Positions 171 through 47,277 of a stretch of 47,277 bases of DNA are shown here, one piece after another. The stretch covers positions 1 through 47,277 of the forward strand of contig JBDKTO010000117.1 of NCBI GenBank assembly GCA_039680175.1, written 5' to 3'. Position numbers and translations under genes: made by a program. The DNA is from Veillonellales bacterium (lineage in GTDB: Bacteria; Bacillota; Negativicutes; JAAYSF01). The notes below the pieces were generated by a model that made no database searches, was not told the origin of the DNA, and worked only from the letters and a program-made list of their open reading frames with translations. Each line of letters opens with the position of its first letter. The stretch's first letter is position 1.

Positions 171-257
171 GTCATCGACTGGCGTCAGCCATGGCATCGC
201 CAAGCGGGATGCGGTGAAGCGAAAGTACGAGATGGCTTCACTGTCGTTCGCAATGAC
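171..257. repeat. Dispersed palindromic repeat, diverged copy
   Basis: It begins GTCATCG and ends CGCAATGACA, with the internal segments GGCATCGCC and GAGATGGCTTC. This is the same plan as the better-preserved copies at 3313 and 3423: an outer GTCATTGCGAGG arm, an inner GCAATCTC arm, a short centre and the inverse arms. Together with the next copy it fills most of 90-480, where I see no gene. Confidence 0.6.
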
Positions 258-291
258 AAATCGTTTTAGTATGAAAGCGAAAAACGATTCC

Positions 292-423
292 GTCATCGCG
301 AGGAGCGGCAGCGACGCGGCGATCTGTAGAGCCTCCATGCTACTCTGTGCAATTTTTTCATTCCCGCTGCGAACGCAGGCGGCAATTTCAGAAGCATCGG
401 CCGTTCGTTCCTGCGAATGACAG
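292..423. repeat. Dispersed palindromic repeat, GCGACGCGGCGATCT variant
   Basis: The left arm is GTCATCGCGAGGAGCGGCAG followed by CGACGCGGCGATCT; the right end is CGAATGACAG. Its left arm and the internal segment TACTCTGTGCAA recur in the copy inside the heptosyltransferase gene at 19568-19639, so these two belong to one subfamily. An open frame crosses this repeat into the next gene, but it is repeat sequence and not a credible N-terminus. Confidence 0.7.
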
Positions 424-3312: not shown

Positions 3313-3513
3313 GTCATTGCGAGGAGGAACGACGAAGCAATCTCCAAGCAGGAGAGGCGGTCCGGTATCGGGAGATTGCGTCGCTGTCGCTCGCGTTGAC
3401 AGAATTGAGGGTGCTTTTTGCTCGTCATTGCGAGGAGGAACGACGAAGCAATCTCCAAGCGGGAGAGCCGGTCCGGCACGGAGAGATTGCTTCGCTGTGG
3501 CTCGCAATGACAG
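3313..3513. repeat. Two tandem copies of the dispersed palindromic repeat
   Basis: The copies at 3313-3402 and 3423-3513 share GTCATTGCGAGGAGGAACGA and then CGAAGCAATCTCCAAGC at the left, and end in GAGATTGCxTCGCTGT...TGACAG at the right. Their 110-bp period includes a repeated GTGCTTTTTGCTC spacer, so a whole unit plus spacer was duplicated. They fill most of the 627-bp gap between the two porin genes; no gene is seen there. Confidence 0.85.
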
Positions 3514-4895: not shown

Positions 4896-5092
4896 GTCAT
4901 CGCGCGACGCCAGCCGAAGCAATCTCCAAGCGCGGCCCGGAACTGTGAGATTGCTTCGCTGCGGCTCGCAATGACAGAATGGAGGGCTGTGCTTTTGCTC
5001 TGTCATTGCGAGGAGGAACGACGAAGCAATCTCCAAGCGGGAAGAGGCGGCCCGGCACCGAGAGATTGATTCGCTGCGGCTTGCAATGACAG
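4896..5092. repeat. Two further copies of the dispersed palindromic repeat
   Basis: The copies at 4896-4977 (left arm diverged, GTCATCGCGCGACGCC) and 5002-5092 (GTCATTGCGAGGAGGAACGA) both end in GCGGCTyGCAATGACAG. They occupy the 453-bp gap before the next gene; nothing coding is seen. Confidence 0.85.
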
Positions 5093-5097
5093 TAAAT

Positions 5098-5145
5098 GCT
5101 ATGAGCTGTGGGCTATGGGCTATGGGCTGTGAACCAACCACCGCC
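5098..5145. repeat. Heptamer array joined to the palindromic repeat
   Basis: GCTATGAGCTGTGGGCTATG and similar 7-bp units turn into ACCAACCACCGCCC. The array begins 5 nt after the CAATGACAG end of the preceding palindrome, the same order and closeness as at 6825/6830, 10051/10059 and 26970/26977. Confidence 0.65.
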
Positions 5146-6763: not shown

Positions 6764-6907
6764 TCAGCGCGAGGAGAGACGATCCGGCACCGTGAGATTG
6801 CTTCGCTGCGGCTCGCAATGACAGTAAAGGCTATGAACTGTGAACTGTGAGCTGTGAGCCAACCGCCAAGTGCCAAGTGCCAATCACCAAGTGCCAACAA
6901 CCAATAG
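6764..6907. repeat. Shortened palindromic repeat plus heptamer array
   Basis: 6764-6825 is a palindrome copy with a central deletion (GTCAGCGCGAGGAGAGACGA joined to GATTGCTTCGCTGCGG...CAATGACAG). 6830-6907 is a heptamer array (GAACTGT, GAGCTGT, then GCCAAGT, GCCAATC, GCCAACA). The 327-bp gap 6700-7026 holds these, the terminator and the next promoter. Confidence 0.75.
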
Positions 6908-11145: not shown

Positions 11146-11245
11146 GTCATTGCGAGGAGGAACGACGAAGCAATCTCAGGAACCGCTGTTGTTTCTTCCG
11201 AGATGTCCCGGATTGCCGCGTCGCTGTCGCTTCTCGCAATGACAG
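11146..11245. repeat. Dispersed palindromic repeat between two heptosyltransferase genes
   Basis: A full-length copy with the left arm GTCATTGCGAGGAGGAACGA and the right end CTTCTCGCAATGACAG. Its centre carries an extra inverted GAAACAACAGCGG-like segment. It begins 8 nt after the waaC stop. Confidence 0.85.
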
Positions 11246-17351: not shown

Positions 17352-18320
17352 ATGATCATCGTTACCGGTGGTGCCGGATTTGTCGGCAGCAATCTTGTCA
17401 AAGGCCTGAACGAAAAAGGCTGCGACAACATCCTGGTGGTGGACAACCTGGGAGAAGGGGATAAATTTAAGAACCTGGTTCCCCTGAAGTTTTCCGACTA
17501 TAGCGACAAGCGGGATTTTATTTGCGATATAGAAGAAGGCGCATTTGACGATGAAAAAATCGAAGCCGTCTTCCATATCGGCGCCTGTTCCGACACCATG
17601 GAATACAACGCCAATTATATGATGGACAACAACTATCAGTATAGCAAATCATTGCTGCATTTTTGTCTGCGCCGGAAAATTCCTTTTATATATGCTTCCT
17701 CCGCTTCCGTCTATGGCAGCGGTTTGAAAGGTTTTCGTGAAAGCGGCGAATGTGAAAGCGCCCTCAACGTTTATGCTTTTTCCAAGATGCAGTTCGACCG
17801 TTATGTGACTCGCCTCTTGCCTGACGCGGAAAGCCAAATAGTTGGGCTGCGTTTCTTTAATGTCTTCGGTCCCCAGGAAATTCATAAAGGCCGGATGGCG
17901 TCTATTGTTTATCAGCTTTACAATCAGATTGTAAAAGACGGCGTCGCCCATTTGTTTACCGGCACCGACGGCTATGGGGACGGCGAACAGGAACGGGACT
18001 TTATCTATGTAAAAGACGTGGTAAAAGTCAACTTGTTTTTCCGGCAGCATCCGGACCGGAGCGGCATCTTCAACTGCGGCACCGGCAAAGCCCGCAGCTT
18101 TAACGATGTGGCCAGCAGCATCATTGAGGCCAAGAACCACGGCAAGATTGAGTATATCCCCTTCCCGGAAAGCCTGAAAGGAAAATATCAAAGCTTCACC
18201 CAGGCCGATACTACTAAGCTTTGTACCGCAGGCGGCTACGACGGCGGCTTCATGAACCTGGAAACAGCCGTTGCCGACTACTGCCGCTATCTTGACAAAA
18301 ACAAGGGATACTTATCATGA
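17352..18320 (+). CDS. hldD: ADP-L-glycero-D-manno-heptose 6-epimerase
   Basis: A 322-residue extended SDR enzyme that epimerises ADP-D,D-heptose to ADP-L,D-heptose. It has the NAD(P) loop TGGAGFVGSN at residues 5-14, VDNLGEGDKFKNL with the family-specific DKF region, GACSDTME, SSASVYG and the catalytic YAFSK around residue 140. FFNVFGPQEIHKGRMASI and GQERDFIYVKDV are conserved in HldD. The start ATG at 17352 follows AAAGGAAAG. The stop overlaps the gmhB start by 4 bp. Confidence 0.95.
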   Translation: MIIVTGGAGFVGSNLVKGLNEKGCDNILVVDNLGEGDKFKNLVPLKFSDYSDKRDFICDIEEGAFDDEKIEAVFHIGACSDTMEYNANYMMDNNYQYSKSLLHFCLRRKIPFIYASSASVYGSGLKGFRESGECESALNVYAFSKMQFDRYVTRLLPDAESQIVGLRFFNVFGPQEIHKGRMASIVYQLYNQIVKDGVAHLFTGTDGYGDGEQERDFIYVKDVVKVNLFFRQHPDRSGIFNCGTGKARSFNDVASSIIEAKNHGKIEYIPFPESLKGKYQSFTQADTTKLCTAGGYDGGFMNLETAVADYCRYLDKNKGYLS

Positions 18321-18820
18321 CCAACTTAAAGCCAGCCGTATTCTTCGATCGGGACGGTGTACTTAATATCGATCACGGCTATGTGTACCGTTCGGAAGAC
18401 TTTGAATGGATGCCCGGTGCCATTGCTGCCATTAAGCATTTTAATGATCAAGGCTGCCTTGTCTTCGTCATTACCAACCAAAGCGGCATTGCCAGGGGCT
18501 ATTATACCGAGCAGGATTTTCAAAAGCTCAATGAGTTTATGGAGCGGGAACTGGTAAAACACAACGCCCACATTGATGCTTTTTACTACTGTCCCCATCA
18601 CAAGGACGGCATCATTCCTCAATACACCAAGGATTGCACCTGCCGCAAGCCCCAGCCGGGCATGCTGCTCAAAGCCATGGAGGAATGGCCGGTAGACAAA
18701 GATCGGTCAATTCTTATCGGCGATAAGCCTTCCGATATGGAAGCGGCCAAAGCCGCCGGCATACCGGGCTATTTATATCAGGGAAGCAATCTTTATGACT
18801 TTGTTCTGAAAATTTTCTAG
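18317..18820 (+). CDS. gmhB: D-glycero-beta-D-manno-heptose-1,7-bisphosphate 7-phosphatase
   Basis: A 167-residue HAD phosphatase. FFDRDGVLNIDHGYV carries the two catalytic Asp; VITNQSGIARGYY, the zinc loop YYCPHHKDG...DCTCRKPQPG (Cys, His, Cys, Cys) and IGDKPSDMEAAKAAG complete the family pattern. It removes the 7-phosphate before nucleotide activation by HldC. With gmhA, the kinases, hldC and hldD this completes the ADP-heptose pathway within 10 kb. It is translationally coupled to hldD (ATGA overlap). Confidence 0.94.
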   Translation: MTNLKPAVFFDRDGVLNIDHGYVYRSEDFEWMPGAIAAIKHFNDQGCLVFVITNQSGIARGYYTEQDFQKLNEFMERELVKHNAHIDAFYYCPHHKDGIIPQYTKDCTCRKPQPGMLLKAMEEWPVDKDRSILIGDKPSDMEAAKAAGIPGYLYQGSNLYDFVLKIF

Positions 18821-18850
18821 ATTGCTTCGTCGTACCTCCTCGCAATGACA
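18821..18850. repeat. Left-arm fragment of the palindromic repeat, inverted
   Basis: ATTGCTTCGTCGTACCTCCT followed by CGCAATGACA directly after the gmhB stop codon (TAG at 18818-18820) is the reverse complement of the usual left arm. Confidence 0.7.
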
Positions 18851-18899: not shown

Positions 18900-20153
18900 A
18901 TGTCTAATCAATATCGCAACATCCTGGTCCATTCCCTGGTTAACATTGGCGACGTCCTGTTATCTACCAGCGCCGTTGCTCTGTTGCGCCAAGTATACCC
19001 TGACGCTAAAATCACCATGATGGTTAGACCGGCAGCAGCTCAGCTGGTGACCAATAATCCCGTCATTGACGAAGCCATCATCTACGACTACAAAGCAAAG
19101 CACAAATCCTTCGGGAAAATGTGGCAAATGGCACAACGCCTGCGGTCAAAGCACTTTGATCTCAGTATTTCTTTTGACCGCAAGCTTCGTCCGGCTTTAC
19201 TCACCTGGCTGGCAGGCATTCCGGTGCGAGTGGGACCGGACAAAGTGTTTGACGACAAACCAAGCCGGGTGACCATGCTCTATACCCGAACCATTCCCCT
19301 CCGCCACGACATTGTCAACACCCTCCAGGCCGAAACCTATCAGGCCATCATCCGCGGCTTTACCGGAACAACCGGTTCCGCCAAGCCCGTCATGGCCCGC
19401 ATCATGCCGGAAAACGAAGAGAAAGCCGGAGAACTGTTAGCGTCACTACTCCCCGGCAGCGATTCTGGTTCTGTCTTTAACAAGAAAGATCAGTTTGTTG
19501 GAGATGGTATCATCGTACCTCCTTGCAATGACAAATCACCTGAGAATAACAGCACAAAAAACATTCTGTCATCGCGAGGAGCGACAGCGACGCGGCGATC
19601 TCCGGGGCCACAGACATTCTTTCATGATACTCTGTGCAAGCAATCTCAGCCCGACGCACAGCTATCACGGCCGCTTCGCATCGCACTCTGTGTCAAAGGC
19701 ACCTTTCCTCTGAAAACTTGGCCGAAAGAACGGTTTGCCGCAGTGGCGGACCAATTAGCCGCCCAATACACGGCCCAATTCTTCATTATCGGCGCTCCGG
19801 AAGACAGGGACTATGCCGATGAAGTTATTGCTTTTGCCAAAACGCCTATTGCCAATTTCTGCGGCCAAACCAGCCTGGTAGACTTAGCGGCTTTGCTGCA
19901 AAAGACGGATTTATTGGTAACAGTGGATACGGGAACGGCACATATCGCCGCAACAGTCGGAGTGTCTATGATAGTGATTTATGGCTGTACTTCTCCCAAA
20001 CGCTGGCATCCTATCAATCCTAACGCAGTTGTTCTTACCAGTAATGAATCGTGCTGCCCCTGCGCAATTCCGGCGGAGGCTTGTCCGGAACGGCGCTGCC
20101 TTCAGCATATTAATGTAGAGGATGTTACTCTGGAGGTTCAAAAAAAATTATAA
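18900..20153 (+). CDS. Heptosyltransferase family protein (GT9) carrying an in-frame palindromic repeat
   Basis: A 417-residue protein, about 70-80 longer than the other GT9 proteins here. The acceptor domain opens ILVHSLVNIGDVLLSTSAVA; the donor domain starts at about residue 257 (PLRIALCVKGTFPLKTWPKE) and has TVDTGTAHIAATVGVSMIVI. Residues about 196-256 are encoded by dispersed repeat DNA: an inverted fragment (19500-19533) and a copy of the GTCATCGCGAGGAGCGACAG subfamily (19568-19648). The reading frame is uninterrupted and the insert lies in the linker between the domains, so activity may survive. C-terminal cysteines (CCPCAIPAEACPERRC) match the paralogues. Donor and acceptor are unknown. 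Confidence 0.85.
   Translation: MSNQYRNILVHSLVNIGDVLLSTSAVALLRQVYPDAKITMMVRPAAAQLVTNNPVIDEAIIYDYKAKHKSFGKMWQMAQRLRSKHFDLSISFDRKLRPALLTWLAGIPVRVGPDKVFDDKPSRVTMLYTRTIPLRHDIVNTLQAETYQAIIRGFTGTTGSAKPVMARIMPENEEKAGELLASLLPGSDSGSVFNKKDQFVGDGIIVPPCNDKSPENNSTKNILSSRGATATRRSPGPQTFFHDTLCKQSQPDAQLSRPLRIALCVKGTFPLKTWPKERFAAVADQLAAQYTAQFFIIGAPEDRDYADEVIAFAKTPIANFCGQTSLVDLAALLQKTDLLVTVDTGTAHIAATVGVSMIVIYGCTSPKRWHPINPNAVVLTSNESCCPCAIPAEACPERRCLQHINVEDVTLEVQKKL
19500..19648. repeat. Palindromic repeat inserted in frame in the GT9 gene
   Basis: 19500-19533 reads GGAGATGGTATCATCGTACC then TCCTTGCAATGACA, a diverged right arm. 19568-19648 reads GTCATCGCGAGGAGCGACAG, CGACGCGGCGATCTC, later TACTCTGTGCAAGCAATCTC. 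The second part shares its arm and the TACTCTGTGCAA segment with the intergenic copy at 292-350, showing it is the mobile-type repeat and not ordinary coding sequence. Confidence 0.8.
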
Positions 20154-26887: not shown

Positions 26888-27024
26888 GTCATTGCGAGGA
26901 GGAACGACGAAGCAATCTCCCTCCTATCCACCGTGAAGCGAGATTGCTTCGCTGGCGCTCGTAATGACAGAACGTAGCGCTATGGGCTATGAGCCAACAG
27001 CTAACAGCCAACAGCCAATCGCCC
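26888..27024. repeat. Palindromic repeat plus heptamer array
   Basis: 26888-26970 is a full palindrome (GTCATTGCGAGGAGGAACGA ... GTAATGACAG). 26977-27024 is an array (GCTATGGGCTATGAGCCAAC, AGCTAACAGCCAACAGCC). Together with the hairpin and the next promoter it fills the 486-bp gap 26729-27214. Confidence 0.8.
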
Positions 27025-30367: not shown

Positions 30368-32296
30368 ATGCGGCGCAGGTTGGTATCGCTCGCTCTTGTA
30401 GTAGCCGATATCCTTGTTGTTTCTATTGTCCCGTTTATTGCCTTGTATCTTCGCTTTGACGGTATAGTCGATGCACACTATTATTCACAACTAGTATCCT
30501 ATTTACCGGCTATTGTACTTATCCAACTGACAACTTTTTATCTGTTCCGTCTCTATCACCGTTTATGGCGCTATGCCAGTATTCACGAACTAGTGGTGAT
30601 TGTGGGGGCGGTAACGGTCAGCTCGGCTGTGTTGGTTGCCTATTCAAATATAATAAATTCTATATTGCCAGGAAGTATTTATGTGTTAAGCTGGCTGTTT
30701 ACTATTGTCTGCATAGGCGGCAGCCGGCTGGGGCTTCGTATCCTGCATTACTTGATCCGCCAGACTCATTCCAATCCGATTCAAAATGTGCTGATTATCG
30801 GCGCCGGTGATGCCGGGGCAATGATCGCCAGGGAAATCACCCAACGGTACTATGAAACAAAAAAAATAGTCGGTTTTATTGATGATTCTGCTTATAAGAG
30901 CAACCAAATCTTGTTTGGCGCCAGAGTGTTAGGTCCCTGCAGTCAAATTCACCGTATTGTTCAGGAACAAAGCATTAGTGAAATTATTATTGCCATGCCG
31001 TCGGTGGAGGGCAGTATCGTCAGGCAGATTGTTCAGGAGTGCAAAACAACCCAGTGCAATGTGCAGATTGTTCCCGGTATTTATGAACTGATTGACGGCA
31101 AGGTCAGTGTTCACCAATTACGTAATGTGGATTTGGAGGACTTGCTGCGACGGGAGCCGGTACAACTGAATGCGGAAGATATTGCCGGATACATAAAAGG
31201 CCATCGGGTGCTGGTGACCGGAGCCGGTGGGTCCATTGGCTCCGAGCTTTGCCGCCAGATTGCCCGTTTTTCACCGGAACAGATTCTTCTGTTGGGAAAG
31301 GGAGAGAATAGTATTTACGAAATTCATCAGGAACTGGGAAGAAAATATCCCGACTTAAATCTTTCACCCATCATTGCCGATGTCCGGGATGAAGAGCGAA
31401 TCAATGATATTTTCGCCACCTACCGGCCGGAAATCGTCTTCCACGCCGCTGCGCATAAGCATGTGCCCCTCATGGAACTGCAGCCGTTGGAAGCGGTCAA
31501 AAATAATGTATTCGGCACGAAAAATGTGGCTCAGGCAGCAGATCGCTATGAAACGAAAATCTTTATTATGATTTCCACCGATAAGGCGGTCAACCCTACC
31601 AGTGTCATGGGATGCACGAAACGGGTGGCGGAAATGATTATTCAAAGCCTAAACCGGGAGAGCAAGACTAAATATACCACAGTCCGCTTCGGCAATGTCC
31701 TTGGCAGCCGGGGCAGCGTCATCCCTCTCTTTAAAAAACAGATTGCCGCCGGAGGACCGATTACCATTACCCACCCGGACATTATCCGTTACTTTATGAC
31801 CATTCCCGAAGCTAGCCAATTGGTGCTGCAAGCGGGGGCTTTAGCCCAGGGTGGCGAAGTGTTTGTTCTCGATATGGGCAAGCCGGTTAAGATACTGGAC
31901 ATGGCTTGCGACTTGATCGAACTTTCCGGCCTGGTGCCCTATAAAGATATAAAATTTGAATTCACCGGACTGCGGCCAGGAGAGAAGATGTTTGAAGAAC
32001 TGCTTACCGCCGAAGAAGGAACACAGGCGACAAAGTATAAGAAAATTTTTCGGGCTAAATTACGATCGGTGGATGAGAAAAAATTATCAAAAGTCTTGTT
32101 TCAGTTTCAAAATCAATTTAATGACAGCGAAGAAGTAAAGCGTTTGTTGCAAAAGCTCATTACCGTTTATAAGCCATACCATAAAAAGGATAGTCAGGAT
32201 AGTTCTTCTGGCAAGCTAGCAATAGCAGAAGAACCTACTGTACAACAAGAAACACCTGCCTTTTATCCGGCAGAGTCAATGGAAGCGAGTCATTAA
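30368..32296 (+). CDS. Membrane-bound nucleotide-sugar 4,6-dehydratase (CapD/WbpM/FlaA1 type)
   Basis: A 642-residue protein. Four hydrophobic segments lie in residues 1-115, then a Rossmann CoA-binding-like domain (NVLIIGAGDAGAMIAREI, about 140), then a second SDR domain from about 280 (VLVTGAGGSIGSELCRQIAR) with HAAAHKHVPLMELQP, STDKAVNPTSVMGCTKR at the catalytic site and VRFGNVLGSRGSVIPLFKKQ. Relatives convert UDP-GlcNAc to the 4-keto-6-deoxy sugar used to start bacillosamine- or QuiNAc/FucNAc-type repeat units. It lies directly before the phosphoglycosyl transferase, which may use its product. The last 40 residues are low in complexity and variable. Confidence 0.9.
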   Translation: MRRRLVSLALVVADILVVSIVPFIALYLRFDGIVDAHYYSQLVSYLPAIVLIQLTTFYLFRLYHRLWRYASIHELVVIVGAVTVSSAVLVAYSNIINSILPGSIYVLSWLFTIVCIGGSRLGLRILHYLIRQTHSNPIQNVLIIGAGDAGAMIAREITQRYYETKKIVGFIDDSAYKSNQILFGARVLGPCSQIHRIVQEQSISEIIIAMPSVEGSIVRQIVQECKTTQCNVQIVPGIYELIDGKVSVHQLRNVDLEDLLRREPVQLNAEDIAGYIKGHRVLVTGAGGSIGSELCRQIARFSPEQILLLGKGENSIYEIHQELGRKYPDLNLSPIIADVRDEERINDIFATYRPEIVFHAAAHKHVPLMELQPLEAVKNNVFGTKNVAQAADRYETKIFIMISTDKAVNPTSVMGCTKRVAEMIIQSLNRESKTKYTTVRFGNVLGSRGSVIPLFKKQIAAGGPITITHPDIIRYFMTIPEASQLVLQAGALAQGGEVFVLDMGKPVKILDMACDLIELSGLVPYKDIKFEFTGLRPGEKMFEELLTAEEGTQATKYKKIFRAKLRSVDEKKLSKVLFQFQNQFNDSEEVKRLLQKLITVYKPYHKKDSQDSSSGKLAIAEEPTVQQETPAFYPAESMEASH

Positions 32297-32317
32297 CTTT
32301 AAAATGGGATGTGTAGT

Positions 32318-32896
32318 ATGAAAAGATTGTTTGACGTGACATCATCTGCTGTCGCACTTTTATTATTTCTTCCGCTATTTATTTTTATCGCAATTTTAAT
32401 AAAGTTTGATTCTAGAGGACCAGTATTTTTTTGCCAAAGACGCATAGGTGTTAAAGACAAAGAGTTTATGATGTATAAGTTCCGATCGATGGCGGTGGGA
32501 ACACCGGAAGTAGCTACAGATAAGCTGACCAACAGTCAGGCGTATATTACCAAAGTCGGTTACTATTTGCGCAAATACAGCCTGGATGAATTGCCTCAGT
32601 TAATCAATATTTTGAAAGGCGATATGTCTGTTGTTGGACCGCGCCCTGCCTTATATAATCAGTATGAATTGCGAGAAAAACGCAATAAGCAGGGGATTTC
32701 AGCTTTGCGTCCAGGACTTACCGGCTGGGCACAGATCAATGGGCGGGATGAGATAGCTTTGGAAGAAAAGTTTAAATTGGACTCTTTCTATTCTCAGCAC
32801 CAGAGCTTTTGGTTGGATATGAAAATTATATTTTGTACGTTGTTTAGTGTTTATTCGGGCAGTGGAGTCAAGGTGAAGACGTTTTTGCACGAGTGA
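32318..32896 (+). CDS. Phosphoglycosyl transferase (bacterial sugar transferase, PglC/WcaJ core)
   Basis: A 192-residue monotopic membrane enzyme that links the first sugar phosphate to undecaprenyl phosphate. RLFDVTSSAVALLLFLPLFI is the re-entrant membrane helix, GPVFFCQRRIGVKDKEF and MYKFRSM follow, YSLDELPQLINILKGDMSVV holds the Asp-Glu catalytic pair, and GPRPALYNQYEL and PGLTGWAQINGRD complete the family pattern. It has only the catalytic core, without the N-terminal membrane domain of WbaP or WcaJ. The ATG at 32318 is preferred because the protein then starts directly at the conserved helix; an ATG three codons earlier is possible. Base composition turns AT-rich about here. Confidence 0.9.
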   Translation: MKRLFDVTSSAVALLLFLPLFIFIAILIKFDSRGPVFFCQRRIGVKDKEFMMYKFRSMAVGTPEVATDKLTNSQAYITKVGYYLRKYSLDELPQLINILKGDMSVVGPRPALYNQYELREKRNKQGISALRPGLTGWAQINGRDEIALEEKFKLDSFYSQHQSFWLDMKIIFCTLFSVYSGSGVKVKTFLHE

Positions 32897-32951
32897 TATT
32901 TGGTGGTGAAAGTTCATTTAGAAATAGTTGTTCTGAGGGGAAGGAAAGCGC

Positions 32952-33725
32952 ATGAAAGTAGTAATCCTTGCTGGTGGTTTTGGTACACGTATTAGTGAAG
33001 AATCACACTTAAAGCCGAAACCCATGGTGGAAATTGGTGGCAGACCGATACTTTGGCATATTATGAAAATATATTCCAGTTACGGATTTAATGATTTTGT
33101 GATATGTCTTGGGTACAAAGGGTATTGCATTAAAGAATATTTTGCTCATTACTTTTTGCATGAGTCTGATGTTACTTTTGATTTTCGCATGTCCAATCAG
33201 CAATATGTTCATCACAATCATGCTGAACCATGGAAAGTTACTTTAGTGAATACTGGTCTAAATACTATGACAGGCGGTCGTGTAAAACGTATCCAATCAT
33301 ATATTGGCAATGAGCCGTTTATGCTTACGTATGGAGATGGTGTTAGCAATGTGGATATTGGTAAATTAGTAGAATATCATAACGCACAGGGTAAATTAGT
33401 TACTGTTACTGCCGTTCAGCCAACAGGCCGTTTTGGTGCGTTGGATATAGATGAAAATAATGGTATAAATGGTTTTCAGGAGAAGCCCAAAGGCGATGGT
33501 GCTTGGATTAACGCGGGCTTTTTTGTGATGCAGCCGGAAGCGTTTAACTATATTGGTGATGACAGCACTATTTTAGAAAGAGAACCCCTGGAAAATTTAG
33601 CTAAAGATAAACAACTTGTCGCCTACAGACATGGTGGATTTTGGCAGCCGATGGATACCTTGCGAGATAAGAATCAGTTAGAAGAATTATGGCAGACAAA
33701 TAAAGCTCCTTGGAAAGTATGGTAA
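32952..33725 (+). CDS. rfbF: Glucose-1-phosphate cytidylyltransferase
   Basis: A 257-residue protein making CDP-glucose from glucose 1-phosphate and [23 protein letters not shown] is the nucleotidyltransferase signature; [30 protein letters not shown] with the metal-binding Asp, RFGALDIDE and [11 protein letters not shown] agree with RfbF/AscA/DdhA. The length is as in the family. It is the first of three consecutive genes of the CDP-3,6-dideoxyhexose pathway, and its stop lies 5 nt before the rfbG start. Confidence 0.95.
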
Positions 33726-33730
33726 GGGAA

Positions 33731-34810
33731 ATGATTTCAAAGGAATTTTGGCAGGATAAAAAGGTATTTATTACCGGACATACAGGTTTTAAAGGTTCAT
33801 GGCTATGCCTATGGCTGTATTCCTTAGGTGCCAAGGTAACTGGGTATGCTTTACAGCCACCAACTACACCAAGCTTATTTGAACTTTGCAAAATTGAAGG
33901 GTTAGTTAGTCATATCATTGGTGATGTGCGTGATGCTGAGGCCCTAAATAATGCTATGAACAAAGTTCAGCCGGAAATCGTCATTCACATGGCTGCTCAG
34001 CCGCTAGTGCGTGATTCCTATAAAATTCCTGCTGAAACTTATACCATTAATGTTATGGGAACGGTTCATCTATTTGAAGCAGTTCGTCAGTGCAAAAGCG
34101 TTAAAGCTGTTGTCAATGTAACAACAGATAAGTGCTATGAGAATAAGGAATGGCTGTGGGGTTATCGGGAGAATGAACCAATGGGTGGCTATGATCCTTA
34201 TTCCAATAGCAAGGCCTGTTCGGAATTAGTTACTGCCTCCTATCGCAATTCATTTTTTCATCCTTCCAAGTATGCTGAACATGGTGTTGCTATAGCTTCG
34301 GCCAGAGCGGGTAATGTCATCGGTGGGGGAGATTGGGCGGCTGATAGATTGATACCAGATTGCATAAATTCGTTATTATATAATAAAAGGATTTATATCC
34401 GCAGTCCGCAGGCAATTCGTCCCTGGCAGCATGTATTGGAACCATTAAGTGGTTATTTGATGTTAGCGCAGAAACTCTATGAAGAAGGGATACCCTTTGC
34501 CGAAGGGTGGAATTTTGGACCGAATGATAGTGATTCCAAGCCGGTAGAGTGGATTGTGCAGAAGATGTGTGAACAATGGGGCGGTAATGCTTCATATGAA
34601 ATAGATACAAGTCCACAACCGCACGAAGCGAGTTACTTGAAATTGGACTGTTCTAAAGCTCGGATGCGATTGGCGTGGGAGCCACGCTGGAACTTAGAAC
34701 AGGCTTTGAGTAAAATTATCGAATGGGTTTCGGCGTACAGGGAGAATCAAAATATGCGTGATGTTTGCTTACAACAAATAAAACAATATGTAAATGAGGT
34801 TGAGCCATGA
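33731..34810 (+). CDS. rfbG: CDP-glucose 4,6-dehydratase
   Basis: A 359-residue extended SDR enzyme converting CDP-glucose to CDP-4-keto-6-deoxyglucose. [20 protein letters not shown] at the N-terminus, [41 protein letters not shown] with the catalytic YxxxK, and [19 protein letters not shown] are diagnostic. In-frame starts at 33710 and 33719 are possible, but the ATG at 33731 gives the family's usual length and N-terminus. The last 4 bp overlap rfbH. Confidence 0.95.
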
Positions 34811-36159
34811 ACTGCAATGAAGAATTGGAAAAACAATTGCACCGAGAGATAATGGAATTGGTAGCAAAATATTATAAAGTGAAACATAGAAAAGAAAATG
34901 TATTTAAACCAGGGGATCGAATTTCCTACGGGGGCCGTGTATTTGACGAGCAGGAAATGACTAATCTTGTAGATTCTGCATTAGACTTTTGGCTAACTAC
35001 CGGTAAATACACTGCACAATTTGAAGCAGATTTTGCTAACTTTTTAGGTGTAAAATATTGTTCGTTAACTAATTCCGGTTCTTCCGCCAATTTATTAGCC
35101 TTCATGGCACTTACTTCACACAAATTAGGAGAACGCCACATTAAAAAAGGTGATGAAGTCATCACTGTTGCCGCGGGGTTTCCGACAACAGTTGCTCCCA
35201 TTATTCAGTATGGTTCCATTCCAGTATTTGTCGATGTGACTTTACCTGCCTATAATATTGATGTTTCACAGTTGGAAAATGCGTTATCCGATAAAACCAA
35301 GGCGGTAATGATTGCTCATACATTAGGTAATCCATTTGATTTGCAAGCAGTTAAAGATTTCTGTGATAAGCATGATTTATGGTTAGTGGAAGATAACTGC
35401 GATGCATTGGGAACTAAGTATTTATATAATGGGGAATGGAAATACACAGGTACAGTTGGGCATATTGGTACATCCAGCTTTTATCCGCCACACCATATGA
35501 CTATGGGGGAAGGCGGTGCTATTTATACTAACGATCTTCAATTGAAACGTATTGTTGAATCCTTCCGTGACTGGGGCCGTGATTGCTGGTGCCCGTCAGG
35601 CCATGACGATACTTGTAAACATCGTTTTACGCAACAGTTTGGTGAATTGCCGTTGGGATATGATCATAAATATGTATATTCGCATTTGGGTTATAATTTG
35701 AAAGTTACTGATATGCAGGCGGCAGTAGGCTGTGCACAATTAAAAAAAATTCCGAGTTTTATTGATGCACGACGTAAAAACTGGCAAATGCTTCGGGAGG
35801 GTTTAAGTGATCTTCAGGACGTATTATTATTACCAGAACCAATGAATAACTCTGAACCAAGCTGGTTTGGTTTCCTTATTACAGTGAAAGAAAATGCTCA
35901 AATTAAGCGTGATGATATCGTTAGATACTTGGAAGAAAATAAAATTCAAACTAGAATGTTATTTGCGGGTAATTTAATTAAGCATCCGTGCTTTGATGAA
36001 ATGAGAGCAACGAAAACTGGCTATCGTGTAGTTGGAGAACTAACTAATACAGATAAAATTATGAATAATACTTTCTGGATCGGCGTTTATCCGGGCATGA
36101 ATGAAGCTATGATCAAATGTATGATAAATGCCATTAAAAATGCCATTAAAAATGGTTAA
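34807..36159 (+). CDS. rfbH: CDP-4-keto-6-deoxyglucose 3-dehydrase (E1, PMP and iron-sulfur)
   Basis: A 450-residue aminotransferase-fold enzyme that removes the C3 hydroxyl of CDP-4-keto-6-deoxyglucose. Around residue 229, [16 protein letters not shown] has His where ordinary PLP enzymes have the Schiff-base Lys, the mark of E1 dehydrases. The segment [20 protein letters not shown] supplies cysteines for the [2Fe-2S] cluster. [17 protein letters not shown] binds the cofactor phosphate. E1 needs an NADH-dependent iron-sulfur reductase (E3, RfbI/AscD); none is encoded in this window. Confidence 0.95.
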
Positions 36160-36276
36160 TGATAGTATTATTATCTTAGTTAAGCAATTTATTGTCATTA
36201 ATTTTTAATAACGGTACCATTAAATTTTTTGCTTAATAAATTATGGGCGTTTAAGTAAGAATTTAAGGAGTATGAA

Positions 36277-37998
36277 ATGAAATTAAGCGACTATATTGTA
36301 TCATTTTTAGTAGAAAAGAAGATAACAGATGTATTTGGTTATCCTGGTGGAATGGTAACACATTTAATGGATTCTTTCGATAAATATAATGATAAAATTT
36401 TTGCTCATCTTGCTTATCATGAGCAAGGTGCCGCTTTTTGTGCTTGTGGGTATGGACAAATATCTAAGTTACCTGGAGTTGCATATGCTACCAGCGGTCC
36501 TGGAGCAACAAATTTAATTACTGGAATTGCAAATGCATATTTTGATTCTATTCCTTGCGTTTTTATTACAGGACAGGTTAATACTTACGAAGCCAAGGGA
36601 TGTTTAGAGGTTCGGCAAAAAGGATTTCAAGAAATGGACGTTGTTAGTGTAGTAAAAAGCATAACCAAATATGCGGTACAAGTTACACAGGCGGACGATA
36701 TACGGTATGAATTAGAAAAAGCTTTTTCTATAAGTATGAGTGATAGGCCGGGACCAGTACTGTTAGACATTCCCATGAATATTCAAAGAGCAGAAATTGA
36801 TCCCGAAGCGTTAGCTGGATATAGTAATAGTTGTAATTGTGTTTGTTCTTGTGGTTCGAGAAAAGATATAGTTTTTAATACTTTGATGCAAGCAAAAAGG
36901 CCGCTTATTATTGCGGGTGCAGGTGTTAGTAATTCGGGTTGTAAAAAGGTTTTTCAGAAATTAGTTGATAAGCTAAAAGTACCAGTGGTTACTAGTATGA
37001 TTGGCATTGATTGCTTGTCCCATGAATCACCATATAACTTTGGCTTTATTGGTGCCTATGGTCATCGTTATGCTAATTTTGCAATTGCAAAAAGTGATTT
37101 GATTATATCAATTGGATCTAGACTTGATTGTAGGCAAACAGGTTCTAATAAAAATATTTTTGCCCAAGGTGCTAAAATAATCCGAATTGATATTGATGCA
37201 GGCGAACCTACTAATAAAATAAAGGAAGACGATACTTTATTACTATGTGATATAAGAGAGTTTATTCCAGCTATCTTAGATGATACCCGCTTTCAATTTG
37301 GCAATAAATATGAGCATTGGTTAAATCAGTGTAGAGAATTAAAAGGTAATCTAGAATGTATTGATAATGAGCCGGCAAACACAATTGTTCGTGAAATAAG
37401 TAAGTATGTTCCTGATGATGTTGTTGTAACTACTGATGTAGGGCAAAATCAGGTATGGGTAGCTCAAGATTTCGAAGTAAAAAAGAATCAACGTGTTTTG
37501 TTTTCAGGTGGCCACGGTGCTATGGGATATTCGCTTCCGGCGGCGATTGGTGCATATTATGCAAGTCATAAACCTGTTATTTGTTTTAATGGTGATGGTG
37601 GTCTACAAATGAATATTCAAGAATTACAATTTATTGCAAGGGAAGGCATTCCTATAAAAATTGTTCTAATGAACAATCATTCACTTGGTATGATAAGGCA
37701 TTTTCAAGAAATGTATTTTGACTCTAACTCTATGCAAACGACTGCCGACAAAGGATATACAGTTCCAGATTTTAATAAGGTTGCTGCAGCATATGGTATT
37801 GACACTTATACTATTAAACGGATGAATGAAATACCGCAATTAGGAAAAATTTTCCAAGAACTTTCGCCAGCCTTTATTAATGTTATATGTAGTGATAAAA
37901 CCTATGTATACCCTAAACTTGCTATGAATAAACCAATTCATGACCAAGAACCGTTAATGGACAGGGATTTGTTTGATAAGTTAATGGGTGCTGAATGA
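36277..37998 (+). CDS. ThDP-dependent enzyme, acetolactate-synthase-like; possible YerE-type branched-sugar synthase
   Basis: A 573-residue protein with the three-domain fold of acetolactate synthase. The activating Glu49 is in YHEQGAAF; TSGPGATNLITGIANAYFDS, DRPGPVLLDIPMNIQ and a cofactor motif starting NGDGGLQMNIQELQF (about 437) and ending in NN (about 466) are present. The region after it (HSLGMIRHFQEMYFDSNSMQ) departs from the QWQxxFY pattern of true acetolactate synthases. Coming directly after rfbFGH it fits YerE of Yersinia, which adds a two-carbon unit from pyruvate to C4 of CDP-4-keto-3,6-dideoxyglucose. A biosynthetic acetolactate synthase would normally lie with ilv genes, and no small subunit is present. 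The RBS is AAGGAG. The ThDP family is sure, the YerE role inferred. Confidence 0.8.
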   Translation: MKLSDYIVSFLVEKKITDVFGYPGGMVTHLMDSFDKYNDKIFAHLAYHEQGAAFCACGYGQISKLPGVAYATSGPGATNLITGIANAYFDSIPCVFITGQVNTYEAKGCLEVRQKGFQEMDVVSVVKSITKYAVQVTQADDIRYELEKAFSISMSDRPGPVLLDIPMNIQRAEIDPEALAGYSNSCNCVCSCGSRKDIVFNTLMQAKRPLIIAGAGVSNSGCKKVFQKLVDKLKVPVVTSMIGIDCLSHESPYNFGFIGAYGHRYANFAIAKSDLIISIGSRLDCRQTGSNKNIFAQGAKIIRIDIDAGEPTNKIKEDDTLLLCDIREFIPAILDDTRFQFGNKYEHWLNQCRELKGNLECIDNEPANTIVREISKYVPDDVVVTTDVGQNQVWVAQDFEVKKNQRVLFSGGHGAMGYSLPAAIGAYYASHKPVICFNGDGGLQMNIQELQFIAREGIPIKIVLMNNHSLGMIRHFQEMYFDSNSMQTTADKGYTVPDFNKVAAAYGIDTYTIKRMNEIPQLGKIFQELSPAFINVICSDKTYVYPKLAMNKPIHDQEPLMDRDLFDKLMGAE

Positions 37999-38046
37999 TA
38001 ACTATAGCAGTAACATTATGAGGCTATCACTTCTGTACTTATTTAA

Positions 38047-38154
38047 TCGGATTATTCGTTAGATGTATTTAAAGACATAAAAATTGCAGAAATTGAAAAT
38101 GCAAAGGACTTTTTAATAACTGATAGGATTGCGGATTATCCAATGACAGAATAG
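38047..38154 (+). pseudogene. Possible C-terminal remnant of a lost gene
   Basis: A 35-codon open stretch ending at TAG 38152 reads SDYSLDVFKDIKIAEIENAK followed by DFLITDRIADYPMTE. It has a protein-like composition but no start codon or RBS and is preceded by a stop. It may be the tail of a deleted sugar-biosynthesis gene between the ThDP enzyme and the reductase. I do not recognise the family. Confidence 0.3.
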
Positions 38155-38172
38155 CATGCGGAGGGAATATTC

Positions 38173-39249
38173 ATGTGTCAAAGTTTTATGAGAAGCGATG
38201 TTATTGAGAAGGATATGCAGGATATTTATTCGCGTGATATTGCCTGGGAAAGATTTAAGGGGAAAACTATTTTGGTTACGGGTGCAACAGGGATGTTGGT
38301 ATCGTATCTTTTATATTTTTTGATATATTTAAATGAGGTACACAATGCTAATATCCGTATAATTGCTTTGGTACGGAATTTGAAAAAATGTGAACAAAAA
38401 TTTGGTAAGTATAAAGAAAAATCATATTTTAAAATTTATACAGAGGATATTACAAAGCCTTTAAATATTGCGGAAGCAATAGATTTTATTATTCATGCTG
38501 CGAGTTTAGCAAGTCCGCAGTATTATGAGCCTATGCCCATTGAAGTTGCTGCACCTAATGTATTGGGAACGTATTACTTATTACAATTAGCTAGAGAAAA
38601 AAAAGTAAGCGGTTTTTTGTTTTTTAGTAGTGGAGATATTTATGGAAAAATGCCGGAAGGGACAGGAGATATAGTAGAAGAGATGTCAGGATCTATGGAC
38701 CCTTTGGATATGCATAGTTGTTATGGTGAAAGTAAACGTATGGGGGAAACATGGTGTGCATCTTTTGCACGTGAATATGATATGCCAGTTACGATTGTTC
38801 GCATTGGGCATACGTATGGACCAACTATGGATGTTGAGCAGGATCCAAGAGTATTTGCTTCTTTTATGAAATGTGTTTATCATGGAGAAGATATTGTTAT
38901 GTTAAGCGATGGAAGTGCTAAGCGTCCCTTTTGTTATATCGCTGATGCGATAGTAGCATTTTTTCTAGTTTTATTAGAAGGTAAAAAAGGTGAGGCTTAT
39001 AATGTTTGTAATACCATGGAATTTTTGAGCATAGCAGAACTTGCGGAATTGATGGTTCGCTTACGTCCGGAACTTGGTTTGAAGTTTATCCGAAAGCAAC
39101 GTGTGCGTTCAGAGGTTTATTTAGAAAATAAGGGGAACAAGGATAATAAACCAATTGAAACGAAATTGAAAAAATTGGGATGGAAATGTCATTATGATAG
39201 TTATACTGGTTTTAAAAATGTATTACGATATTTGCAACAGAGGGGTTGA
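38173..39249 (+). CDS. NAD-dependent epimerase/dehydratase-type SDR; candidate YerF-like reductase
   Basis: A 358-residue extended SDR. About 30 residues precede the nucleotide loop (TILVTGATGMLVSYLLYFLI). IDFIIHAASLASPQYYEPMP, FFSSGDIYGKMPE and CYGESKRMGETWCASFA with the YxxxK pair follow; RIGHTYGPTMDVEQDPRVF and RPFCYIADAIVAF are typical of UDP-glucuronate decarboxylase relatives. By position after the YerE-like enzyme it could reduce the acetyl side chain of the branched sugar, as YerF does; a plain 4-reductase or decarboxylase role is also possible. The RBS GGAGGG precedes the ATG. Confidence 0.75.
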   Translation: MCQSFMRSDVIEKDMQDIYSRDIAWERFKGKTILVTGATGMLVSYLLYFLIYLNEVHNANIRIIALVRNLKKCEQKFGKYKEKSYFKIYTEDITKPLNIAEAIDFIIHAASLASPQYYEPMPIEVAAPNVLGTYYLLQLAREKKVSGFLFFSSGDIYGKMPEGTGDIVEEMSGSMDPLDMHSCYGESKRMGETWCASFAREYDMPVTIVRIGHTYGPTMDVEQDPRVFASFMKCVYHGEDIVMLSDGSAKRPFCYIADAIVAFFLVLLEGKKGEAYNVCNTMEFLSIAELAELMVRLRPELGLKFIRKQRVRSEVYLENKGNKDNKPIETKLKKLGWKCHYDSYTGFKNVLRYLQQRG

Positions 39250-39278
39250 TAAATGAATGGGTTAGGGGTGTATTATCT

Positions 39279-39538
39279 TTGCCGTTTATGAAGGAACTCA
39301 GCTTAGATGGGAAGCTTTTTGTCGAATTCATTGCACTTACTTCTTATCCTATGTGAAAAAGAAAATGCAGGACGACAACCTGTTTACAAAGTATACGATG
39401 CAGGAACTTTTTGATGAATTAGATGTGATTGAATGCTTTGAATATCCTGGATATGATTTGCGTGTAAGTGAAATGACATCTCGTCAACTCGCTATATACG
39501 AAACAATGGGGTTTAATCCCCCAGCTTCGTTACATTAA
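39279..39538 (+). pseudogene. Transposase C-terminal remnant (IS4/IS1634-like), frameshifted
   Basis: LPFMKELSLDGKLFVEFIAL runs in one frame from 39279. About 39330 the reading continues in another frame as YFLSYVKKKMQDDNLF, then KYTMQELFDELDVIECFEYP, and ends NPPASLH at 39538. This resembles the C-terminal end of IS4/IS1634-type transposases (GKLFxxFIAL...SYxKKxM...YTMQELxDELD). The catalytic DDE region is absent. The 465-bp gap 39250-39714 contains this remnant, two small inverted repeats and the leader of the flippase gene. Confidence 0.6.
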
Positions 39539-39553
39539 GTCCGGGAATGCAGG

Positions 39554-39604
39554 ATACCTAGGTATAATCGCTACTGAGGCAACGTGACATATAAAAAATG
39601 TCAC
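39554..39604. other. Two small inverted repeats after the transposase remnant
   Basis: ATACCTAGGTAT (39554-39565) is a perfect palindrome. GTGACAT (39584-39590) pairs with ATGTCAC (39598-39604) around an A-rich loop. They may be the remains of an insertion-sequence end; no T-run suggests a terminator. Confidence 0.35.
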
Positions 39605-39714
39605 TATCTTAATTCATCACAGGAGTGGTCTTGATATTGTGGTCCATTATAGTCAGAATGATTCTTGTCGGATAATCAAAGGGGAGTGGGTATTTTAGCA
39701 AAAGTAATTAAGTC

Positions 39715-41082
39715 ATGAAGTTTTTAGAGAAAACAATGGGAAAAGGTAGTGGAGAAGCATGCATGATAGATAACAAAGATGTTTCATATAGTGATAAAGT
39801 AATTTATAAGAATTCTATTTTTTCATTATTATATAAAGGTATTGCGATGTTATTATCCCTTCTTTCGGTACCATTGATGTTACATTGTCTCGGTACAGAA
39901 AAATATGGCGTGTGGGTATCGTTGTTGTCTGTTGTTTCTTGGATTTATTATTTTGATTTAGGTGTAGGAAATGGATTAAGGAATAAATTGGCAGAATCTA
40001 TAGCTCTTCATGATATTGAAAGTTCAAAAAAATATTTAAGCGTTTCTTATCTTTTAGTAAGTGGAATATCATTTCTTATATTCATTGCAATTCTCGTTAT
40101 TTTTTCTATAATAGATGTTTCTTCGCTGTTGCACTATAGCCTTTTAGATGAAAATCTTGATCTCATATTGATTATTGCATTTTTCTTTGCCTGTGTTAAT
40201 TTTGTGGCCTCTCTTGTCAATAATATATTTTATGCTGTACAGAGAGCTAGCTTAGTGAACTTTTTTGGCGTAGTAGGACAGGTGCTCTTTATTTTAGGAT
40301 TGATAGTGTATATTCAAACAGGTAAAAGTTTTCTTGTAATGCTTGTTATTGTTGAAGGGGTTGCCCAACTGTTAAAAAATGTTGTGGCGACAGGTTATAT
40401 ATTCCGTACTTATTCACAATTAAAGTTTTCGATCAATAAGATTGATTTTAGTTATGCACATGGAATAGTAGGTTTTGGCCTCCGAGTTTTTCTTATTCAG
40501 ATTACGGCATTAATTTTGAATTCGACAGATAATATTATTATCTTACGATATTTTGGCGCGGATGCTGTAACGCCATATAGTTTGTGTTATAAGTATTTTA
40601 ATACGATTAATGCATTTTTTGTAGTTATGTTAACACCTCTTTTATCTGCCTATACTTTTGCTTATGCGCGACATGACGTTGAATGGATAAAGAAAACTTT
40701 ATATAAGGGATTTTTGCTTTTCATTGCTTTTGTTGCGATTATACTCATTGCTGGATTTGTTTTTGAGCCAGTTACAATTTTATGGTTGCAAAAAAAACTT
40801 TATTTTCAACCGGGTCTCATATTTTTGACTGGATTGTATTTCGTTTTGTTAATGTTTACACATAATTTTTCCACGCTATTAAATGGAATTAGTAAAGTTT
40901 CAGGGTATACAATATCAACGATTTTGATGGCAGTTATTAACGTACCAATTTCAGTTTTTATAGCCGTTTATATGGGAATGGGGATTAATGGAGTTATTAT
41001 GGGATCTATTATTTCGATGATAATTGGGGTTGTAGTTTCTCCTATTATTGCGATAAAGGAATTAAAGAAGTTGGGAGGTTAG
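39715..41082 (+). CDS. Wzx-type polysaccharide flippase (MOP/PST family)
   Basis: A 455-residue integral membrane protein with about 12 hydrophobic segments. The first (IFSLLYKGIAMLLSLLSVPL) carries the usual basic, amphipathic start, followed by LGTEKYGVWVSLLSVVSWIY and FDLGVGNGLRNKLAES, which are conserved in this family. It would flip undecaprenyl-linked repeat units across the inner membrane. I see no wzy polymerase in the window. The N-terminal 25 residues are unlike the family and the ATG at 39715 has no clear RBS, so the start could lie further in (for example at the Met of MIDNKDVSY). Confidence 0.85.
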   Translation: MKFLEKTMGKGSGEACMIDNKDVSYSDKVIYKNSIFSLLYKGIAMLLSLLSVPLMLHCLGTEKYGVWVSLLSVVSWIYYFDLGVGNGLRNKLAESIALHDIESSKKYLSVSYLLVSGISFLIFIAILVIFSIIDVSSLLHYSLLDENLDLILIIAFFFACVNFVASLVNNIFYAVQRASLVNFFGVVGQVLFILGLIVYIQTGKSFLVMLVIVEGVAQLLKNVVATGYIFRTYSQLKFSINKIDFSYAHGIVGFGLRVFLIQITALILNSTDNIIILRYFGADAVTPYSLCYKYFNTINAFFVVMLTPLLSAYTFAYARHDVEWIKKTLYKGFLLFIAFVAIILIAGFVFEPVTILWLQKKLYFQPGLIFLTGLYFVLLMFTHNFSTLLNGISKVSGYTISTILMAVINVPISVFIAVYMGMGINGVIMGSIISMIIGVVVSPIIAIKELKKLGG

Positions 41083-41085
41083 AAA

Positions 41086-42156
41086 ATGCTTCTTTTGTCA
41101 ATTTGTATACCATCATATAACCGATTTACTAGTTTGAATGTAGCCGTTAAATTAATGTTGAAAGCAGAATCTAGAGACTTTGAAATTATAATATTAGATA
41201 ATAAATCGCCAAATGATATTGAAAAGGAAATTATAATTCATGATAAACGTTTACATTTTATCAAACAAGAGTCAGCTGTTAATGCAAATGAGAATATTAG
41301 GGATTGTTTATTATATGCTACGGGAAAGTATGCAATGATTTGCTTAGATAAGGATAGTATTAATGGAAGAATGTTAGATGAGTTTCTTCAAGTTATTCGG
41401 CAAAATCCCAAAATTTGCGGAGGTTGCTGTATACAAAATAAAATATCTAAAGAAAATAAAATTGAGATTTATGATCATGATCAGATTCTAAAATTTGGAT
41501 ATTTATATTTAGGAAAACATCCGTCAGGTGATTTTTACAGAACCGAATATATGAATGAAGATATAAAGTTGTTATCGGAAAAAGCATTGAATAGTGGATT
41601 TATATCGGATTTAATTTTGGCAAGATGCGCTAGTCATGGTTCTATGCTATTTTATGATAAACCTTTAGTGTTTCTTGAGAAATCGAAAACTGCTGCAAAA
41701 ATAAAGTCATATACATATTCTGGAAAAAATAATAATGTATATTTTTATCCTAATAAGAGAAAAGAACAGTTTAGCGTGTATATTGATCATATGAAATCAT
41801 TGTATATAACACATAAATTATGGAAAAAATTACTTGAGAAGATTTATGTTCAGAAAATTATTCAAGTTACGTTTGGTTTTCGAGATGTTATGCGTTTAAA
41901 AGATGCATGTACACACTATGATCTCACGGTTAGGAATATTACGTTAAAAGAAATGTTTCATTATTGGATAGATTTTAATAATTATTTTTTGAAAAGTGAT
42001 CTTAATGATTTATCCAAATATAGTAAGTTGTATATTATCATTAAATCAAATTTAATGCTTGTAAAAAAATTTATCGATAAAAAATTATGCTATTCTAGTT
42101 GTAGAAGAAATGTATTTATGAATAAGTTGCTTATTGGAAAAAATTCAATAAGATGA
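41086..42156 (+). CDS. GT2 family glycosyltransferase
   Basis: A 356-residue protein. LLSICIPSYNRFTSLNVAVK, FEIIILDNKSPND and NANENIRDCLLYATGKYAMI, then LDKDSINGRML (a divergent DxD), form a GT-A domain of about 220 residues. The C-terminal 130 residues are basic and aromatic without a recognised domain. It starts 3 nt after the flippase stop, with GGGAGG inside the end of that gene as RBS, so the two are coupled. Substrate unknown. Confidence 0.78.
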   Translation: MLLLSICIPSYNRFTSLNVAVKLMLKAESRDFEIIILDNKSPNDIEKEIIIHDKRLHFIKQESAVNANENIRDCLLYATGKYAMICLDKDSINGRMLDEFLQVIRQNPKICGGCCIQNKISKENKIEIYDHDQILKFGYLYLGKHPSGDFYRTEYMNEDIKLLSEKALNSGFISDLILARCASHGSMLFYDKPLVFLEKSKTAAKIKSYTYSGKNNNVYFYPNKRKEQFSVYIDHMKSLYITHKLWKKLLEKIYVQKIIQVTFGFRDVMRLKDACTHYDLTVRNITLKEMFHYWIDFNNYFLKSDLNDLSKYSKLYIIIKSNLMLVKKFIDKKLCYSSCRRNVFMNKLLIGKNSIR

Positions 42157-42226
42157 GGATACTAATCTGAATAATGCAAATAATAAAAGAAATTATCATA
42201 GAATATATGCATGGAGGAATGCAGCA

Positions 42227-43297
42227 TTGATTATTAAACATTCTCATACTGGTTTTGAGGCATTGCGTATTTTGGCAATGCTAATGATTGTTAGTCTACA
42301 TTATTTGGGTCACGGAGGGGTTTTACAAGCAACGCCATATTCAACAAATTATTTATTAGGCTGGTTTATCAATGCTTTTTGTAAAGTAGGTGTAAATTGT
42401 TATGTTCTAATAAGCGGATATTTTTTAGTAAAATCGTCAGATTTTAAAATTAAGAAAGCTTGCGATTTATGGATAGAAGTTTTCTTTTATTCGGCTGGTA
42501 TTTTTCTTTTATTTTATAGCTTAAATATTATTCCTCTTTCAACAAAAGGATTACTGAAAAGTTTTTTACCAATCAAATTAGAAGCATATTGGTTTGTTAC
42601 GGCATATATGGGTCTGTATATTTTATATCCATACCTTAATAAATTAATAACAAATCTAAGCAAAAGGGATTACCAAAAATTTATTTTTGTTTTGCTGGGT
42701 ATTTTCAGCATATATTCGTTTGTAGGCGATACATTCCATGTAGTTGGAGGCTCTAGTCTGATTTGGTTTATTGTACTATACTGTATTGGTGGATACTTCA
42801 GGCTTTTCGATGATTTTAGCAACAAAAACAAAATGTTTTTGTTTTATGTAATTATGTCAATATTTATTTTTATTACTAAAATTACTCTTTATAGTATAGG
42901 TTCTCATTTCGGCTTTGCTACTAAAGGCGGTTCAGAAATATTTTATGCATATAATTCACCAATATTATTATGTTCTTCCGTTGCATTATTTCTATTTTTT
43001 AAAAATGTAACAGTGGATCGTATATGGTTGCTTCATTTAATTAACTTTTTTGCACCACTTACTTTTGGCGTGTATTTAATTCATGACAATGATTTTGTAA
43101 GAGCAAATATATGGAGATATTGGCTGAATACACCTGCATTTTATGATTCTCAATATTTCCTTTTACACTATATTATGTCTGTTATCAGTGTGTTCGTCAT
43201 TTGTGCACTAATAGATAAAATTAGACAGTCGATATTTTTTATTAGTGGCAATATGATGCACACTTTGTATGAGAGACATAGAAAACGTATGGTATAG
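42227..43297 (+). CDS. Membrane acyltransferase (acyltransferase-3 / OafA-WecH type)
   Basis: A 356-residue protein with about ten hydrophobic segments. TGFEALRILAMLMIVSLHYL contains the catalytic His near residue 25 (usual form R-x-x-A-x-x-x-V-x-x-x-H). FCKVGVNCYVLISGYFLVKS, AYWFVTAYMGLYILYPYLNK and FGVYLIHDNDFVRANIW are family segments. It would O-acetylate the polysaccharide or its lipid-linked unit. The start is TTG at 42227 with GGAGGAATG before it; an ATG within that segment is out of frame. Confidence 0.85.
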   Translation: MIIKHSHTGFEALRILAMLMIVSLHYLGHGGVLQATPYSTNYLLGWFINAFCKVGVNCYVLISGYFLVKSSDFKIKKACDLWIEVFFYSAGIFLLFYSLNIIPLSTKGLLKSFLPIKLEAYWFVTAYMGLYILYPYLNKLITNLSKRDYQKFIFVLLGIFSIYSFVGDTFHVVGGSSLIWFIVLYCIGGYFRLFDDFSNKNKMFLFYVIMSIFIFITKITLYSIGSHFGFATKGGSEIFYAYNSPILLCSSVALFLFFKNVTVDRIWLLHLINFFAPLTFGVYLIHDNDFVRANIWRYWLNTPAFYDSQYFLLHYIMSVISVFVICALIDKIRQSIFFISGNMMHTLYERHRKRMV

Positions 43298-44204: not shown

Positions 44205-44219
44205 TGGGTGAATTTTTTA

Positions 44220-45140: not shown

Positions 45141-47277
<2,137 letters not shown>

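Follow-up and report, generated by a model that had tools for sequence, protein, structure and literature searches.

A REP/BIME-type palindromic repeat inserted in frame at the interdomain linker of a heptosyltransferase-like gene in a Negativicutes bacterium

The window considered here, a 47,277-nucleotide stretch of DNA from a Veillonellales genome (G000), lies on a 118-kb contig (C117) and contains, at 18900..20153 (+), a heptosyltransferase-like GT9 open reading frame (ORF) of 417 codons. Its product matches Pfam Glyco_transf_9 (E=7e-35), its predicted fold finds the GT9 structure 3tov, WaaF (1psw) and WaaC (2h1h) as best Foldseek matches, and no Rfam family was found over the gene. Four further GT9 ORFs or candidates in the window encode 338-353 residues, those at 10077, 11280 and 20360 being verified as Glyco_transf_9 by Pfam; an earlier account of this DNA (the preliminary description), which had set 417 residues here against about 340 for the paralogues, was therefore right on this point. 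Directly upstream, an HAD phosphatase gene together with the REP arm that abuts it spans 18317-18849. Elsewhere in the window, at 32000-46000, G+C falls from about 0.48 to 0.29-0.40 with a strong GC skew, which suggests a segment of different origin. The GT9 gene and the repeat copies outside it are as follows.

292..352 (+), intergenic copy sharing arm and spacer with the GT9 insert, TACTCTGTGCAA at 341-352
3313..3511 (+), two complete palindromic units (3313-3400 and 3424-3511) in a 111-bp tandem
4896..5090 (+), a pair of complete palindromic units (4896-4975 and 5002-5090)
11146..11243 (+), complete palindromic unit, fold -43.8 kcal/mol, z -4.9
18819..18849 (-), REP arm belonging to the subfamily of arm A (below), directly adjoining the TAG stop that ends the HAD phosphatase gene upstream of GT9
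18900..20153 (+), GT9 ORF, 417 aa, frame open throughout
26888..26968 (+), complete palindromic unit

When the GT9 protein was aligned with 54 orthologues, the check that the preliminary description had proposed, about 71 of its residues were absent from 53 of them; the linker segment that holds these residues measures 12-14 residues in the 53 orthologues and 84 here. This orthologue set comprises one genome per species with no same-genus relative and is biased to Selenomonadaceae. The same 60 residues in distant orthologues would have spoken against an insertion, and none of the 54 carries them. The insert had been placed at residues 196-256; its existence stands, and its limits proved slightly narrow, since the comparison with orthologues gives residues ~186-258 and a match to an intergenic repeat copy (C21:16398) starts at 19471. 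Both halves of the gene are in frame on either side of the insert within the 118-kb contig, which makes an assembly chimera unlikely. The insert is made up as follows.

19455..19673 (+), whole inserted segment, net ~71 codons (~213 nt; residues ~186-258) by alignment with orthologues, give or take a few codons at its limits
19471..19501 (+), loop remnant before arm A (GTCTTTAACAAGAAAGATCAGTTTGTTGG..), aligning with the intergenic composite copy C21:16398 and also with L069/L072
19502..19532 (-), REP arm A, degenerate, 5 of 31 positions changed from GTCATTGCGAGGAGGTACGACGAAGCAATCT, hairpin broken
19533..19567 (+), spacer of 35 nt with arms tail-to-tail, in the AATGACAAATCAC..TTCTGTCATCGCGAGG arrangement seen also at window 250-310, on C21, at two places on C74 and on C11
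19568..19601 (+), REP arm B, perfect subfamily match, identical to C74:130081
19602..19639 (+), loop tail with TTTCATGATACTCTGTGCAA, common to C36, C117:66 kb, C117:73 kb, C117:92 kb and window 336-352
19640..19649 (+), probable third-arm remnant GCAATCTCAG, the same 10-mer as in the unit at 11146, in the frame of the G036 arm (..KQS..) described below

Alignments of the insert with intergenic repeat copies give 75-95% identity. Within a local set of loci, the closest full-length relative is the intergenic copy C21:16398 (75% over 19471-19622, E=3e-23), and arm B is a 34-nt perfect match. The loop tail includes CATGATACTCTGTGCAA as well as TACTCTGTGCAA, the latter at 19628-19639, and the preliminary description was correct both in finding GTCATCGCGAGGAGCGACAG in the gene (19568-19587) and in noting that the arm and TACTCTGTGCAA are shared with the intergenic copy at 292. 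The reading of GCAATCTCAG at 19640-19649 as the end of a third arm is suggestive only, as the match is short, and the outer edges of the insert (19455-19470 and 19650-19673) have no clear repeat match. Two of the six frames of the insert are free of stops, and the GT9 gene uses one of those two. The hairpin in the insert has a core of -18 kcal/mol (z -3.5).

The 20-mer GTCATCGCGAGGAGCGACAG has one other perfect copy in the genome, and allowing two mismatches brings the total to 11; the wider arm pattern GTCATYGCGAGN{3,16}GCRATCY finds 61 intact arms; reversed controls returned zero in both searches. These results, together with the 417 open codons, bear out the proposal of a dispersed palindromic repeat that leaves the frame open. 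The arm census counts exact matches to the pattern in the searched genomes only; a single long full-arm pattern gave no matches because arm lengths vary. In 63 arms compared, the base before GTC is T in 59 and C in four, with AT next; arms are 27-34 nt long with a 5-bp outer stem and mostly end in CTC. The individual arms are small hairpins in their own right, and across the listed arms ATTGC/GCAAT exchanges with ATCGC/GCGAT as a compensatory change. A complete unit of ~88 nt runs GTCATYGCGAGGMG..GGCRATCTC, then a ~30-nt loop, then GAGATTGCTTCGCTGCCGCTCGCAATGAC, and a covariance model (R1; alignment A1) places complete units at about 40 places in the genome; such units fold strongly (z -4.9 and -6.4). 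Arms stand head-to-head inside units and tail-to-tail across the spacer (AATGACAAATCAC..TTCTGTCATCGCGAGG) at the copy at 292 and on C21, C74 and C11. This arrangement of arms and spacers is that of REP/BIME elements. Related units are present in some other genomes of the class, and neither the arm pattern nor the covariance model found the repeat in G048.

The repeat is unevenly distributed. Two contigs that make up 5.7% of the genome, C117 and C30, hold 41 of the 61 intact arms (binomial P about 1e-36, the contigs having been chosen after the counts were seen), and in another genome, G038, eight of 15 arms lie within C1:105-286 kb, around that genome's own GT9 orthologue, so that regional clustering near envelope genes is seen in both. 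Degenerate heptanucleotide tandem arrays (GCTATGG, GCCAAGT, AGCCAAC and similar) occur in the window at 969-1045, 1481-1556, 5098-5132, 6834-6905 and 26992-27018; several lie directly beside REP units, and arrays of the same kind flank REPs on other contigs (L078, L079 and L091).

The preliminary description had suggested a search for further coding copies, and this search found none: among the ~63 arms of this genome, the GT9 copy alone lies inside a recognisable gene, the repeat being mostly extragenic. Several ORFs that overlap repeats have no Pfam family and were taken as spurious (the window ORF at 3123, L004/L120, L092, L093, L055, L107 and L198, and likewise L243, L216, L220, L241, L247, L256 and L258). 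In an MTHFR ORF of genome G045 (L215) and a 2-hydroxyacid dehydrogenase ORF (L105) the repeat overlaps only the part before the domain, which we read as start-site artefacts. The repeat appears at most weakly predisposed to open frames, since 17% of frames are open in composite copies (11 sequences, one of them the gene copy) versus 7% after shuffling, and open frames in complete units are no commoner than in shuffles. The genome has seven Y1_Tnp loci, three of them full-length RAYT-like genes (L143, L144 and L145; 254-266 aa), and none of the seven is flanked by repeat arms within the flanks examined, up to about 1.5 kb long. A repeat-flanked RAYT transposase is not a feature of every REP family.

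We examined where the insert would lie in the folded protein using an AlphaFold2 model built from 20 sequences. Values of pLDDT fall below 50 only at residues 186-252, between the helix at 170-181 and the strand at 259-264, and the domains mostly score 80-97. The insert is thus predicted to form a disordered loop at the junction of two well-predicted Rossmann domains, where the preliminary description had located it. Outside the insert the protein shows no sign of decay: there are no departures at 49 near-invariant columns, its branch (0.21) is the shortest in a three-member clade (others 0.32 and 0.37), and against orthologues pN is 0.21 with pS about 0.77.

The one orthologue of the 54 that is not empty at the linker escaped the preliminary description. 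It belongs to G036, from another family of the same class, and has one in-frame REP arm of 27 nt at this linker, which reads LP-VIASETKQS-LYRIALC and is coded CCT GTCATTGCGAGTGAAACGAAGCAATCC CTT TAT CGC. The stem of this arm is intact, the arm is identical at 24 of 27 positions to other arms of the G036 genome, and the ORF is intact. Counting an arm as inside a gene when it is interior to an ORF with a recognised domain on both sides, we found that of ~109 intact arms placed in G000, G036, G045 and G038 only the GT9 arms of G000 and G036 qualify. G000, G036 and G048, whose own orthologue has an empty linker, form one clade (95/91) with an inner order that the tree does not settle; an AU test does not reject G000 and G036 as sisters (p 0.49), and synonymous sites between their GT9 genes are saturated (pS 0.76). 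In a 60-genome search, G036 (C88) was the sole genome among the five of its genus, g8, to have a close orthologue of the GT9 gene, an observation compatible with horizontal transfer.

We consider it highly probable that a non-autonomous REP/BIME-type repeat was inserted as a composite into the heptosyltransferase gene, at a linker that tolerates it, and is read through in frame. The repeat would have entered as right arm, spacer, left arm and loop; with a net length that is a multiple of three and a stop-free frame in use, translation would pass through it; and, the insert lying in a surface linker of the GT-B fold, the enzyme could plausibly fold around a disordered loop of ~70 residues. As G036 carries its own REP arm at the site, most likely through a separate event, the linker would be a recurrently colonised, tolerant one. 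The full-length 417-aa protein is presumably made and active, and the insert presumably tolerated and not useful. Given the pristine arm B, the insertion may also be so young that selection has had no time to test the gene. The idea that the insert is an ordinary lineage-specific linker expansion, like the repeat only by chance, could appeal to its outer edges (16 nt at the start and 24 nt at the end), which have no clear repeat match, but an arm that is perfect over 34 nt, an alignment of 157 nt to an intergenic copy and the lack of any control match refute this idea, to which we give virtually no credence. A recent insertional mutant, in which the frame is open by chance, the loop inactivates the enzyme and loss of the gene is under way, would fit the apparent youth of arm B; the mRNA hairpin (-18 kcal/mol core, z -3.5) could hamper expression, and the lost function could be made good by several GT9 paralogues in the cluster. 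We nevertheless regard it as improbable in view of 417 codons with no stop or frameshift, the retention of all conserved residues on a short branch, a linker position predicted to be harmless and the parallel insertion in G036 with its frame intact.

The number of events at the linker is a refinement of this question, and the likelihoods that we attach to the alternatives are not mutually exclusive. If insertion were random and independent, the same linker being struck twice would, in our judgement, be very unlikely, so that the site should be special, whether through a scarcity of tolerant places, target preference or descent. Under descent, one ancestral arm would have entered the linker before G000 and G036 split, G048 would have lost it, and the G000 arm would later have seeded the composite by REP recombination. 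Besides the shared linker, the improbability of two independent strikes at random sites and the AU result (p 0.49), this scenario draws on the fact that the G000 insert ends in AAGCAATCTCAG in the orientation and frame (KQS) of the G036 arm; the KQS frame common to the third-arm remnant and the G036 arm is the main pointer to a common seed, though as a hint only. We think this scenario unlikely, if still deserving of some weight: synonymous divergence is saturated (pS 0.76) whereas the arm in G036 still agrees at 24 of 27 positions with the REPs now present in that genome, the main arms of the two genes are read in different frames, and G048, of the same clade, has an empty linker. The saturated divergence set against a near-consensus G036 arm, together with the differing frames and subfamilies, favours separate events as the most likely origin of the two insertions. 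An adaptive or domesticated origin, in which REP-coded linkers tune the heptosyltransferase and are selected, could be argued from the sole two in-gene arms (of ~109 in four genomes) sharing a codon position in orthologous genes. We find it distinctly implausible, as the peptides are unrelated (LSSRGATATRRS versus VIASETKQS) and one is several times as long as the other, 53 orthologues manage without an insert, and flexible-linker tolerance with local REP density explains the site. There is a slim chance that the linker is a true recurrent REP target in Negativicutes, hit independently in two families, with the linkers kept for changed enzyme behaviour; mobile palindromes would then be a source of new protein linkers.

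Under the composite-insertion reading that we favour, the locus extends translated palindromic repeats to diderm Bacillota, and two orthologues with different REP-coded insertions at one linker offer a natural pair for weighing tolerance against contribution to protein evolution, and for asking whether REPs choose their sites. The Rickettsia palindromic elements RPE-1, RPE-4 and RPE-6 are likewise palindromic repeats translated inside host proteins whose orthologues lack them, and they decorate many genes per genome. The case described here shares with them an open, in-frame repeat in a protein whose orthologues lack the residues, a likeness of arrangement, and differs in affecting one gene only and in its host, a diderm member of the Bacillota (Negativicutes). 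In REPIN/BIME systems with a RAYT (TnpA_REP), inverted arm pairs and defined spacers occur as they do here, and RAYT-like Y1_Tnp genes are present in this genome too, but the transposase of those systems is flanked by the repeat, whereas none of the seven Y1_Tnp loci here is (within flanks of up to ~1.5 kb). A literature search by sequence string returned unrelated papers only, and none of the papers searched connected REPs with Negativicutes. The parallel with Rickettsia drawn in the preliminary description holds as an analogy; its implied novelty was overstated, because the repeat is of REP/BIME type and Di Nocera et al. (2013, PMC3733652) had already described in-frame intragenic copies of short, dispersed, palindromic GTAG/CGTC-tagged REPs from several phyla, beyond the Rickettsia cases. 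In Thauera and R. conorii that paper gives larger runs of 43-82 REP-coded residues, and the five phyla from which it lists CGTC repeats do not include Firmicutes/Bacillota. Those REPs resemble ours in having a T/CGTC tag with AT next to it where the stem begins, inverted dimers, in-frame copies and positions beside stop codons, and their CGTC members differ in an 8-9-bp stem, a 4-5-nt loop and a CCA tail, against a 5-bp outer stem, longer loops and a CT end here (PMC3733652). Translated intragenic REPs were thus already known (PMC3733652); what is new here is the Negativicutes host, and the unusual feature is recurrence at the same site.
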